From Cristatella mucedo (taxonomy: Eukaryota > Bryozoa > Phylactolaemata > Cristatellidae): 64,000 nucleotides of DNA. Where the stretch lies: the NCBI GenBank assembly GCA_009760855.2, contig WPIO01000179.1, forward strand, positions 407,001 to 471,000. Direction: 5' to 3'. Positions 12,391 to 63,200 of the stretch are shown in pieces. Both the position numbers and the translations under genes were made by a program. How positions within the stretch are numbered: position 1 is the first letter of the stretch; each line of letters opens with the position of its first letter. The notes under the pieces were generated by a model that had not been told where the DNA came from, searched no databases, and saw nothing but the letters and a program-made list of their open reading frames with translations.

Positions 12391-12530
12391 ACCGAGCTGG
12401 TTTGGCTAAGTGGTTAAGGTGCTCGCCCTGACCAAGGTCTGGCCGAAGTCGGTGCTCGAACCCCGTGGCATATGTGAAGCGCCTAAATAAAGTTTAACTT
12501 CTCTTAGGACGCTATACAAATGAATTATAT
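12391..12530 (+). mobile_element. SINE family 1 copy
   Basis: The tRNA-like head has an A box (TGGTTTGGCTAAGTGGTTAA) and a B-box-like GTGCTCGAACC. The conserved middle CCCGTGGCATATGTGAAG leads into a LINE-A-like 3' hairpin region (GCGCC...TTCTCTTAGG...GCTATACAAATG). No polyadenylate tail is present; the end is ATGAATTAT. Confidence 0.8.
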
Positions 12531-12662
12531 TTGTTTTAAATTTAAGACAATTCGGCAAATTATGAAAGAAAAGAAAATACGTGCGGCAAAAATAACAGGA
12601 CTAACTTTATCTCATAGATGGGCTACTTATATATTTGTACAAATACTTGCAGTTTATAAATA

Positions 12663-12720
12663 TGCGTGTGTGTGTGTGTGTGTGTGTGTGTGTGTGCGTG
12701 CGTGCGAGCGTGCGTGTGTG
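12663..12720. repeat. (GT)n microsatellite
   Basis: GTGTGT run of about 35 bp that passes into GCGT/GAGC variants. Confidence 0.95.
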
Positions 12721-12949
12721 TCAATTTGACAATACCCGATTCAGGGTATACTAGCTCTTGCCGACGTAAGATTGGGTGAACATACTCGGGCGTACTCTTG
12801 TGACAATCAGAGAGCTAGAGAAAGTGGAAAGATTGCAATTTTTAAACAGGGCAATCGGCGGGAGGAGCGATTTATGAAAGTCAAATCGCAAAATGAACAT
12901 TTATGAGGGGTCAATTGAGTGGTAGGGGCAGGAAAAAGTGAGAGCGAAT

Positions 12950-58580: not shown

Positions 58581-60127
58581 TTTGGGTAGGACCTTATTAT
58601 TGTAGCGGTCATTGAAGTAACGGCTGAATCGTAGCCATTGCATTTTGTTAAAGCTGTTGGCCCTCCTGCAGGCTTTACAGCTGGCGATCTCTTGCCCCCA
58701 ACAGAAGCAGTATTAGTAACGACCATCTAAGCACCATGTAACTGTACCAAATATGACCAAGAGCGTCTGATGCCCTGCTAAGCACTGGTCGTTCAGACGG
58801 TTTTGAATCGCTGATCACAAATTCCATTTGACTCAGTCTTTCTCGTAGGATCATTTTCAGTCGGCAGCAGTGGACAAGTATCCGACAATTAAAGTTTGAA
58901 TGCTTCGCTATTCGGCAAGACTAGCAATCATGATGCTCTGATTTTATCCTGTGTGGCTTCCAGTAACTCATTTCCAGGATGAGGATTTCTCATGCTTTTC
59001 AACGAGAGCTCTAGAGGCCTCTACAGCTGATATGCACGTGACATGGGGGCTCTCGGGCGTTGTGCAATCAGCTTCGTCCGACTATATTCATTCATAGTGA
59101 GCCGTGATGGCACACTAGGTAAGGTGGTTGCTTTCACGACATCGGTCCCGAGGTCGTGGGTTCGATTCCTGCGGTGGGCGATTCTTTATCGCCACTGCAA
59201 GCGGTGGTGATAGCCGTAAAGGCTCTTCTGTCGCTATACAAAAAGAAGCTGTTCAATCAGCTAGGATTCATCATCTTTGGCCCTACATCCATCCCTAAGA
59301 AGCATCCAATAAGAAATAATAAAATACCTAAACGTGCCGTAGGTATAAGCAAGGCTCACGAAACTAAGCACCGCATCGGAAATTACGAGAAAAAGCAAGC
59401 TCTAAGCCAGCCTAATTGCATCCATAGCAAGGGTAAGCTAGAAACGCTGCTAAGCCGCAATCATTCTCTCGGCCTGCTTACTCGCAGGTATGCACATTCT
59501 TGCACGCACAGAAGTAAAGACATCCCCATCAGTACGGCCCAGCCTTTTTAAGCAGATAAATTGGCGGCAGCATACGTTTGCGCCATTCGGCACGGAACGG
59601 TAAAAGGGAGACCAAGCCAAAGTTGCTCTCAAGCTCTCTTGGTCTAGTGTTGCTTTCTTGAATTATCTATCAAGGTGTTTTGAAAACAGTTCTTAATTCT
59701 CTCCTACCAAGGAGCAGCCAACCAAAATGAACAAGATTGATGAAAATCAATCAGCTTAGACATGTGTCATTGAATATGCTTCATTCACGGCTCCTTGCAC
59801 ATTAAAATGTATGAGCAAAACTTGCACAGTTGGCAATCACTAGGATACCATTAAATTTGGTTGAAGGACAAAGTTGCAAGCCACAGGCATCACCGGTAGA
59901 CGTTATGGGGACACAGGGAAGTCAGAGGCTTATACAGTTATTCAAACAAGCTTACAAGCTACGTCCAAATCTCTTTATGAACACATAGCTACTTTACTAA
60001 GCTTACTTGCGAATGTAGCCTTAGAACAGCACATTGCCACCAAGATGCACCCCACCCAAGGTTCAGCTCAACAAACGTGTGTGCAGGAAGCCTGATCCGT
60101 ATAGATCTTGATGGGACACGTCGACAT
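58581..60127. other. intergenic DNA between convergent genes, including the POLR3K 3' UTR
   Basis: Contains one SINE (59098-59265). No strong AATAAA on the - strand is seen within 500 bp of the POLR3K stop; a CATAAA variant lies at 59974-59979. Nothing else recognised. Confidence 0.6.
59098..59265 (+). mobile_element. SINE family 2 copy, best preserved
   Basis: Complete order of blocks: GAGCCGTGATGGCACACTAG, GTTGCTTTCACGAC, B box GTGGGTTCGATTCC, TGCGGTGGGCGATTC, ACTGCAAGCGGTGGTGATAG, CCGTAAAGGCTCTTCTGTCG and CTATACAAAAAGAAGC, ending TCAATCAGCT. It is the reference copy for the family. Confidence 0.88.
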
Positions 60128-60255
60128 TTACTCTCGCCAACGGTGTCCACAGACAGCATTGCAACATTTGTAGAATGTCGTCATTGGTTCGTCGGCAGAT
60201 CGCGTTTGAATCTGCATGAAGTAAGCTCTCGGGTGGCGACATAAAGGGCACGGTT
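60128..60255 (-). CDS. POLR3K: POLR3K exon 3: C-terminal TFIIS-like zinc ribbon and stop
   Basis: Residues 67-108: EPCPLCRHPRAYFMQIQTRS, ADEPMTTFYKCCNAVCGHRW, RE then TAA. Acceptor CTTTTGTAG. The QTRSADEP motif is fully conserved. Confidence 0.97.
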
Positions 60256-63200
60256 CTACAAAAGACATTTCCACTTTTGCTCAATAACCATTGGCAACAC
60301 TTTAATTCAACAAGTCGACAGAGACTCATACTGCACACAAAAAATGAATGACTAATTCAAGCTTCCTTAAGATCTATACTGCCAAGATCTGCAAAGTCGC
60401 TACGATACCTTCTGTAGAATCCACGTTTTTCCATGCCTCACTTCCTCCTAACACATCATCTACCTCCTTCAGTTTTGGGTATTTCTTGTTAGTGATCTGA
60501 AGCAGAGCATCATGGGTGGAGCTTAAGACACGTGTTAAAATATAAAAGAAAACTCAGGCAAATATAATAATGCAAAAACGTGTACATTATTAACATAGGC
60601 TATACCAATTCGTATAGCTACATAACATTGCCAAAATTCGGGCTTGTTTAGATAAGGATACTACATCTAAGTTGGTCCATGCATTTGTGACATCCCGTCT
60701 TGACTTCTATAACTCACTGCTTGCTGGCCTACCGACATGTGCAATCAGGCACTTACAGCTGGTGCAAAACTCTGCTGCTAGGCTTGTCTGTCGTGAGCAT
60801 TGCAGTTGCCACATCACACCACTTCTCGCCGACCTGCACTGGCTACCAGTCAAGCAACGGATCAACTTCAAGGATTTGTCGCTATCTTTTAGGTCCCTTC
60901 ATTCTTTGGCTCCAGCCTATCCATCAGATGTACTCCCCCACCAGGCCAAGCATCGTACCACCCGCTTTTCGGAATCCAACAGTCTACCAATACCTCGTAC
61001 AAACCTCAAATCCTTTGGAGACCGTACATTTAGTACGTATGCTCCCAAAGCCTGGAACTCCCTCCCGATTTGCGTCAGAACATCCCCTGACCTGACCACA
61101 TTTAAAAGGAACTTAAAAACACACCTATTTAGGACAGCATTTAGTGGGTCCCTGTGATTCGTCCTTATATATTCGACATGCATTTTTCACGGCAGCAGTA
61201 TTTATTGGAGAACAGAAGCAATTTAAAACCTTAGACCTAAAAAGAGCAGTGCAAGCTTCTTTCGTTATTGATTAAGGTTCATTCACTGAACAGGAAAGCA
61301 ACTTAAATCAAAAAGGAAACTCAAACTCCTAGCTAAATGCATATCTCCTTAACCTAATTTGGCCAAACTAACTCAGAATGCATTGCTGGCTGATGAGTCG
61401 AGGCCAAAAAGGGTTTCATATTCAAACTTCCACAGCTACAGACAGAGGACCAGTTATGAAGGGGGGCTTAATTATCATTTAACAGCTACCAGTGTGTGCA
61501 TGTTTGAGTAAATGGCTTATGAGAATCAAAATTATCCCTCCCAGTAATCTTCGTGGGCTTCCATTCAAAGCAACGTGCCAACCTCCTCGAATTTTCAAAC
61601 TTACTGACAGCTCGTCCTTGATGTGCTTATGCGTGCTGACACTGTGCATGCTGCCACTAACCACATTTGCATGTTGACCCTGTGCATGTCACCCCTAACC
61701 ATGCTATTCATTTGTTTGTTTTTCAAGCATGATTTTACTTACCATTCAATTGCATTTCACTTTACAGCAAATGTAAAGCGCCTAGAGAGAGATTAAGTTC
61801 TCTGAGGGCGCTTTATCAAGTGAATTATTATTATTATTATTATTATTATTATTATTATTATTATTATTATTATTATTGTTATAGTGATTTCAACATGCCT
61901 GCCGCTGACCCATCTAATCCAGTTGCATGCTCCCTTGCTGAGACCATGCAGTATTTGGTCTAAAACAATACACTATCTGCCCGTCACGGGTTTTTCTGCC
62001 CACGTTCCAAGCAGGTCCTCAAGTCCTTAGCATTAAATTTACCGATATTGTTTGTCAATTTGCTTGCCCGTGACCCGTCTAACCGGCATGGATGCCTCTT
62101 CCTTAACATACCATACGGGATTGCCGTAATAAAAAACATTCATGAGACAGCTAACTCTGTCGGGTCACACACTTAACCTAATCACCACCAGAGACTTCTC
62201 TGATAAATTTCTCCGGGTGCTCCCTCATGATTAGACCTTAGTCCATTGTCACTTAATCCTTAAAACTGATGTGTAGCTGAGAAATCTAACTATCGCGGTA
62301 ACAGAAGGGTAATGTGGATTTGCCCTTGTGTTTCGGTCATTACTACCGGCAGACGTGTCCTAACTACTTAGCTGCTCCAAAAGAAATGATCGATGAATCT
62401 ACACTATTTTCGCAGCATTCTAGATCAGCATTCTCTTCCAAGCTAACTTTTGCTAACCATTCTGCAGACTAGCTTCTCTTCACTAAGCTCCAAAACATGA
62501 GAACAACTTTGTCAATAAGAAATCGACTCCACGAGTCTCATTCCTCAGCACTTCATTGAATGGAGTCTTTCCATAGACCTACACTCGTAAGCTAAGAATA
62601 CCAGAGCATCCTCCTTTCGATCGAAGCAACAGGCTTGATCAACATTACATTGTTTTCTATCGGTACCGTTTGATTCCCACATCCGCACCGAAAGATCAGC
62701 AACCATCATGGAGCGTACGCCTTTCGACAAAAATGCTCGCAATGTGAGAACTCCGATCGCACGCTTTGCCATTAACCTCGTGCAATTCGGCGGCTCCCTA
62801 ATTCTACACAAAATGGTAAAAGTACCGAACGGCCCACCGGCACCGAAGTGGTCTACCGTACACCTGTGCATTCGCTAGCACATGGTTTCAGCAGGGTCAG
62901 AATAAGTACCGGCAAGACGCTGAAGGCGTGGACCTCTTCCCTGTAACATAGAATTGTAACTAAACATCTTCCAACCATTGCCAATTTACCGAACGCGGGC
63001 TACTACCCGTTTTGAACAGATACACTGTAGAAACTAACATACCTGATCAAATTAGACCTTTTTTGCGTAACACTGGCATATATTTACATTCAGTGGGTAC
63101 AAAGCGCATGGCACTTGAAAGCATTTCGCAAGTGGTTCTGGGCAGTAGAGGGCATTACGTTAACTAACGGCACACGGCGCTGTGGGCATGGGTACCGCGA

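Follow-up and report, generated by a model that had tools for sequence, protein, structure and literature searches.

SINEs (short interspersed elements) whose 3' end is the tail of a LINE (long interspersed element) are a known phenomenon, and 58 of them are counted in a review (PMC3747384), where, in the part of the table of such pairs that was consulted, the single Protostomes entry is Gecko with I elements. We analysed a stretch of 64,000 nucleotides from the bryozoan Cristatella mucedo (contig WPIO01000179.1, positions 407,001 to 471,000; hereafter the window), in which SINE family 1 (SINE1) combines a tRNA-like head with a hairpin tail of the kind carried by the neighbouring LINEs. Our data support SINE1 as such a composite element. 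A preliminary description of the window had named the dominant LINE, LINE A, as its partner, which is probably wrong.

Like SINE1, the HAmo SINE of carps has a tRNA-related head and shares its 3' part, about 45 nt with a predicted stem-loop, with an L2-clade LINE, HAmo LINE2 (PMC2653535). In HAmo a young SINE and its LINE both terminate in TAAATG repeats, and the loop is GGAUA; SINE1 and its LINE relatives, which we liken to HAmo by description, differ in having the loop UURAGU, unequal 3' ends and a SINE apparently older than the dominant LINE. In the eel, UnaSINE1 and UnaSINE2 likewise have their tail in common with a stringent-type L2 LINE, UnaL2, which ends in TGTAA repeats (PMC3747384, PMC4176376); that pair is backed by experiment, the present one by sequence. 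The zebrafish LINEs ZfL2-1 and ZfL2-2 are related elements with distinct stem-loops in one genome, a situation that resembles, again by description, the tail types reported here. In these L2-clade LINEs the protein of open reading frame 2 (ORF2) binds the cognate 3' stem-loop via a region between the endonuclease and the reverse transcriptase (RT); in assays, changes in the loop strongly reduced or abolished retrotransposition and a swap of the stem-loop stopped it (PMC4176376). HaSE1 of Helicoverpa, an arthropod SINE, is also tRNA-headed with a LINE-derived tail, but its partner HaRTE1.1 is RTE-type and ends in a TGA repeat (PMC3272025). For another SINE, Ruka of ticks, a resemblance to tRNA-Ser has been stated (PMC3160391).

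Allowing up to 3 mismatches, the 16-nt hairpin core AGAGATTRAGTTCTCT occurs 24 times on the two strands of the window, while 100 dinucleotide shuffles gave a mean of 1.41 and a maximum of 5. The second round of an iterated profile yielded 38 matches up to E 10, from which 29 with E <0.001 were kept; the other 9 had E >=0.13. By eye, from their upstream sequence, the kept tails were sorted into 11 of LINE A, 8 of SINE1, 2 of LINE B type, 7 older LINE-like tails (O) and a truncated one at 51601, which was excluded from later counts (28 tails used). A LINE frame was matched upstream of 9/11 LINE A tails, one of the two LINE B tails and 2/7 O tails (17678 and 41263). The LINE A tails at 26020 and 30684 lack such a frame but have the LINE A 3' untranslated region in common, and the LINE B-type tail at 63771, likewise without an upstream frame match, was grouped only via the resemblance of its tail and flank. 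A profile of the SINE head, trained in part on the same copies, matched seven of the eight SINE1 copies and missed the one at 18304.

In local alignments of the 8 SINE1 copies with the 11 LINE A copies, 86 of the 88 pairs were in register, with a median score of 36.5 and a median span from +1 to +47.5 of the tail; base-shuffled SINEs averaged 16.4 and never exceeded 24 (300 trials). With the SINE1 tails alone the median was 35 and the minimum 15, so that the weakest pairs are at the shuffled level. The 108 nt upstream of the SINE1 tails scored no better than shuffled sequence against LINE A (median 15, maximum 20), although in the copy with its tail at 29669 these 108 nt are an insert and not the head. 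Hence what the two families have in common is their 3' end, in agreement with the earlier statement that only the last ~50 bp are shared. A 3' end homologous to that of a LINE in the same genome, next to unrelated 5' parts, is what marks a stringent pair; the SINE1 tail is a real LINE-type tail in this known arrangement. The idea that a simple palindrome arose by chance or by convergence in unrelated repeats would fit the decay of pairing in SINE1, which is as neutrally expected (see below). However, the similarity continues in register well past the palindrome and above shuffles, and 24 cores stand against 1.4 expected; we rejected this idea on both grounds and find it hardly credible.

Spacing within the element is in general the same in both families, as had been claimed, except that one T after the hairpin is present in 11/11 LINE A tails and absent from 8/8 SINE1 tails; moreover, one SINE1 copy has an extra T and another a deletion. 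The A/T-rich tail, however, differs between the families. Three TTA-type units in a row end 9/11 LINE A copies and 3/7 O tails, and none of the 2 LINE B or the 8 SINE1 tails. SINE1 and LINE A thus do not end in the same terminal repeat, and the 0/2 of LINE B raises no contradiction.

The arms and loop of LINE A are as first described, with all five inner pairs in 10/11 tails, all five outer pairs in 7/11 and the loops TTGAGT (7), TTAAGT (3) and TTCAGT (1). The inner stem is intact in 5/7 O tails and the outer one in 2/7 O and 2/2 LINE B tails. SINE1 does carry the two-stem element that was ascribed to it, but mostly in damaged form (inner stem intact in 4/8 copies, outer in 0/8); several of the outer breaks turn GCGCC into GCACC, a change that CpG decay could account for. 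Folding was applied to 8 tails (2 LINE A, 1 LINE B, 1 O, 4 SINE1) and gave z values of -5.1 and -5.6 for the two LINE A tails out of 11, -3.1 for LINE B 4656 and -4.8 for O 16872. Compared with neutral decay, LINE A kept 104/110 pairs (p 0.17), SINE1 59/80, with 58.1 in the neutral simulation (p 0.45), and O 60/70 (p 0.02), a weak value since three groups were tested and the mixed O group lacks a single ancestor.

The two families also differ in apparent age. Tails lay at a mean Kimura two-parameter (K2P) distance of 0.053 from their own consensus in LINE A and of 0.197 in SINE1 (permutation p 0.0001), or 0.050 and 0.183 without CpG columns. Pairwise, the means were 0.101 for LINE A, 0.369 for SINE1, 0.420 for LINE B (two tails) and 0.551 for O (mixed); over ~220 nt, the average difference is 0.102 among LINE A copies and 0.271 among four SINE1 copies with whole heads. 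SINE1 divergence is therefore 2.7 to 3.7 times that of LINE A copies, a value somewhat inflated by the presence of two SINE1 subtypes. From the pairwise values, LINE A does not look like a LINE that was active when SINE1 spread. The SINE1 copies of the window appear to predate the LINE A copies, which makes LINE A as it stands an unlikely maker of them and leaves its ancestor as a possible one.

That the LINE A enzyme itself copied SINE1 is thus unlikely in our judgement. LINE A has the same hairpin core and the highest pairwise scores among the LINE groups, one of its copies resembles the SINE1 consensus more than any other LINE copy does, and the TTAAGT loop of three LINE A tails recurs in 2/8 SINE1 tails. 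Against this stand the excess divergence of SINE1, the differing 3' ends and 11 columns at which the SINE1 and LINE A tail consensuses differ (alignment A1), several of them nearly fixed between the groups. Both LINE B tails agree with SINE1 at five of the 11 (18, 39, 51, 55, 58), and one of the two does so at columns 9 and 19. The O tails share the SINE gap at column 51 in 6/7 cases and the SINE base at column 55 in 5/7. In a maximum-likelihood tree of the 28 tails, the 8 SINE1 and 2 LINE B tails lie on one side of a branch (75/77), and a fork of 7 SINE1 tails with both LINE B tails has 83/74. Hence we slightly favour an older sister of LINE A, with a tail nearer to LINE B, over LINE A as it stands as the element that mobilised SINE1.

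Several observations weigh against this choice. Columns 4, 21, 29 and 48 lack the SINE state in both LINE B tails, and one of the 11 columns is a tie within SINE1. No branch of the tail tree is starred, and constraining SINE1 with LINE A cost 12.9 log units without being rejected (p-AU, the approximately unbiased test, 0.16); a constraint that held SINE1 alone together was not rejected either (p-AU 0.26). The median local scores of SINE1 favour LINE A, at 36.5 compared with 25.0 for LINE B and 20.0 for O. Of the LINE copies, LINE A 61767 matches the SINE1 consensus best (43/50) and O 16872 next best (41/49); LINE B 4656 reaches 40/49 and LINE B 63771 36/49. LINE B 4656 is closer than the LINE A consensus to only 3/8 SINE1 copies. 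LINE B itself is represented by two tails, both decayed and both with a broken inner stem, and one was assigned to the group by resemblance alone. The SINE1 folds gave z values of -4.3 (12468, where the usual inner stem is absent), -2.3, -1.3 and -1.0. ARAGORN found 0 tRNA genes, and a comparison with Rfam up to E 10 did not return a tRNA either, so that the tRNA origin of SINE1 is argued from box-like motifs, which we read by eye as putative pol III boxes A and B. Finally, compensatory substitutions, proposed earlier as a check on the hairpin, were no more frequent than in column shuffles: across the 28 tails 6 pairs changed on both sides compared with 4.8 after column shuffling (151/500 shuffles as high), the covariation score was equalled in 98/500 column shuffles, and 82.6% of cells were paired compared with 81.9% in column shuffles and 40-54% in slid controls. 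We therefore rejected covariation as proof of structure; the hairpin has some support from folding and sequence conservation, not from compensatory change.

Comparison with a consensus disfavours any single copy that has decayed, so we gave the diagnostic columns more weight than the scores, which is a matter of judgement. The preliminary description had named a better match of the SINE tail to another LINE as grounds for refuting the pair; this holds in part, for the diagnostic columns and the tree and not for the scores. Of the proposed partnership, the SINE with a LINE-type hairpin stands, and the dominant LINE A as partner is not well supported. The SINE1 tail might also be a relic of a LINE that is neither A nor B and may be extinct, with SINE1 immobile today. 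This would agree with the divergence of all 8 SINE1 copies, the loss of the intact outer stem in every one of them and the four of the 11 columns without a LINE B counterpart. We consider it rather unlikely, as five of the 11 SINE states are common to LINE B and a 64-kb sample leaves room for young copies elsewhere.

For mobilisation by an older sister of LINE A we rely on the shared tail, the unrelated 5' parts, the relative divergence, the missing TTA end of SINE1 and one target-site duplication. SINE1 would be a short non-autonomous retroposon, built from a tRNA-like head and a copy of the last ~50-60 nt of a LINE that presumably belongs to a CR1/L2-like group. By analogy with zebrafish, the ORF2 protein of that LINE may recognise SINE1 RNA at the two-part hairpin, and the RNA would then be reverse transcribed in trans at a nicked target. 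Because SINE1 looks older than the common LINE A, the helper was probably an older relative of LINE A, with LINE B as its nearest candidate in the window. LINE A may be its younger descendant or a younger cousin, with the hairpin retained, the flanking bases altered and a (TTA)n end.

The element was present at all seven SINE1 positions of the preliminary description, in some of them degraded. The copy reported at 29311 has its head and tail but is not contiguous, with ~275 bp between ~29376 and 29669; this insert (29377-29650) has GTGGG flanks on both sides. In SINE1 the tRNA-like head directly abuts the tail, and there are two head types, one with ~18 extra nt between the boxes. One of the eight copies has a perfect 10-bp target-site duplication, and none that convinced us was found for the remaining seven. 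The two copies within 52349-52640 form a tail-to-tail pair separated by an A/T-rich stretch. All features are given in the table.

Table. LINE and SINE1 copies and tails in the window (positions as numbered in the window).
Feature	Positions	Strand	Remarks
SINE1 copy	12391-12540	+	tRNA-like head and hairpin tail; tail 12468-12527
Probable SINE1 copy	18252-18385	-	new relative to the preliminary description; by eye, missed by head profile; 3' outer arm deleted; within old LINE copy
SINE1 copy split by insert	29305-29735	+	head 29305-29376; tail 29669-29728
SINE1 copy	35961-36120	-	top head score; tail 35973-36032
SINE1 copy, degraded	44415-44560	-	tail 44426-44485
SINE1 copy	52349-52508	+	tail 52443-52502
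SINE1 copy	52509-52640	-	tail 52511-52571
SINE1 copy	54720-54906	+	previously given as 54735; target-site duplication 54720-54729 and 54897-54906
LINE A 3' tail	673-733	-	
LINE A copy, 5'-truncated	980-2137	-	RT C-terminal frame; tail 980-1040
LINE A copy	7490-8295	+	tail 8235-8295
LINE A 3' tail	24029-24089	-	
LINE A 3' tail	25960-26020	-	upstream frame match absent
LINE A 3' tail	30624-30684	-	upstream frame match absent
LINE A 3' tail	34043-34103	+	
LINE A 3' tail	42845-42905	+	
LINE A 3' tail	46486-46546	+	
LINE A copy	46789-47885	-	longest open frame (292 amino acids); tail 46789-46849
LINE A copy	60618-61827	+	tail 61767-61827
LINE B copy	4597-5795	-	tail 4597-4656, SINE-like states; amino acid identity to LINE A 34-51% by piece
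Second LINE B-type tail	63771-63830	+	resemblance of tail and flank
O-group tail	9156-9215	+	
O-group tail	14800-14859	-	
O-group tail	16813-16872	-	end CATACAAATGTATC; outer-stem pair UA replacing CG
Older LINE copy (O)	17619-18948	-	frame matches; tail 17619-17678; broken by SINE copy 18252-18385
O-group tail	19033-19092	-	
Older LINE copy (O)	41204-41929	-	frame match; tail 41204-41263
O-group tail	54402-54462	+	

The matches of the LINE frames are confined to the C-terminal part of the RT. A match to RVT_1 in one LINE A frame (E 2e-5, 24.8 bits) lies under the cut-off of 29.6, and CR1/L2 is a putative group name for LINE A, the frames here being relics of the RT C-terminus only. A LINE frame had no match up to E 1 among solved structures. 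Exact matches to the tail patterns were absent from viral contigs and from bacterial and archaeal genome contigs; 3 stretches of viral contigs that match a peptide pattern of the LINE frame were rejected, none being a relative. The window is eukaryotic; besides many LINE copies truncated at the 5' end and long microsatellites, it contains a 28S rRNA relic and an exon with a protein kinase match. The rRNA relic lies at 37023-37619 on the minus strand (Rfam RF02543, positions 2402-2993 of 3401). Candidate exons were seen at 19512-20132 and 51694-52155, the Pkinase match being in the second only; we presume that the gene to which they may belong encodes a cGMP-dependent protein kinase.

A second family of tRNA-like elements, SINE family 2, has eight copies in the window, at 59181, 17060 (minus strand), 18018, 22633, 12284 (minus), 39948, 7452 and 44348 (minus). 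Its 3' element differs from that of SINE1, and the two-part hairpin was clear in 2/4 folded copies; the small hairpin GGCTGTTAAATCAGCT was present in all 3 folded copies that include it, and in several copies the element is followed by CTATACAAATGAGGCTGTTAAATCAGC. A profile search gave 11 rows, of which 8 were strong, and showed no LINE with this tail in the window. The SINE1 head profile gave weak matches to 3 SINE family 2 copies (E 6e-4 to 4e-3). Between the tails of the two families the best score was 30, with a shuffled maximum of 29 (500 trials), and the median was 15, with a shuffled mean of 12.9. The best-preserved copies of both families end in ...CTCTTnnnnCGCTATACAAATGA, and the hairpin cores in between differ. 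These data hint at a shared ancestry with exchanged hairpins. That recognition hairpins were swapped between SINE lineages of this genome seems quite improbable to us; if true, one SINE lineage would have changed its LINE partner by exchanging the hairpin core alone, and the case would serve as a natural experiment on the part of the tail that determines partnership.

A literature search, with most subscription papers outside its reach, found neither a title nor an abstract opening that dealt with this pair, and no paper for sequence words of the tail, and the accessible parts of PMC4748124 and PMC6327564 do not mention such a pair. If confirmed genome-wide, SINE1 and its helper would add a SINE/LINE pair of CR1/L2-like type, in a genome where two SINE families occur next to several kinds of related LINE tail. 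Moreover, the most abundant LINE should not be assumed to be the partner of a SINE without a comparison of divergence and diagnostic sites.

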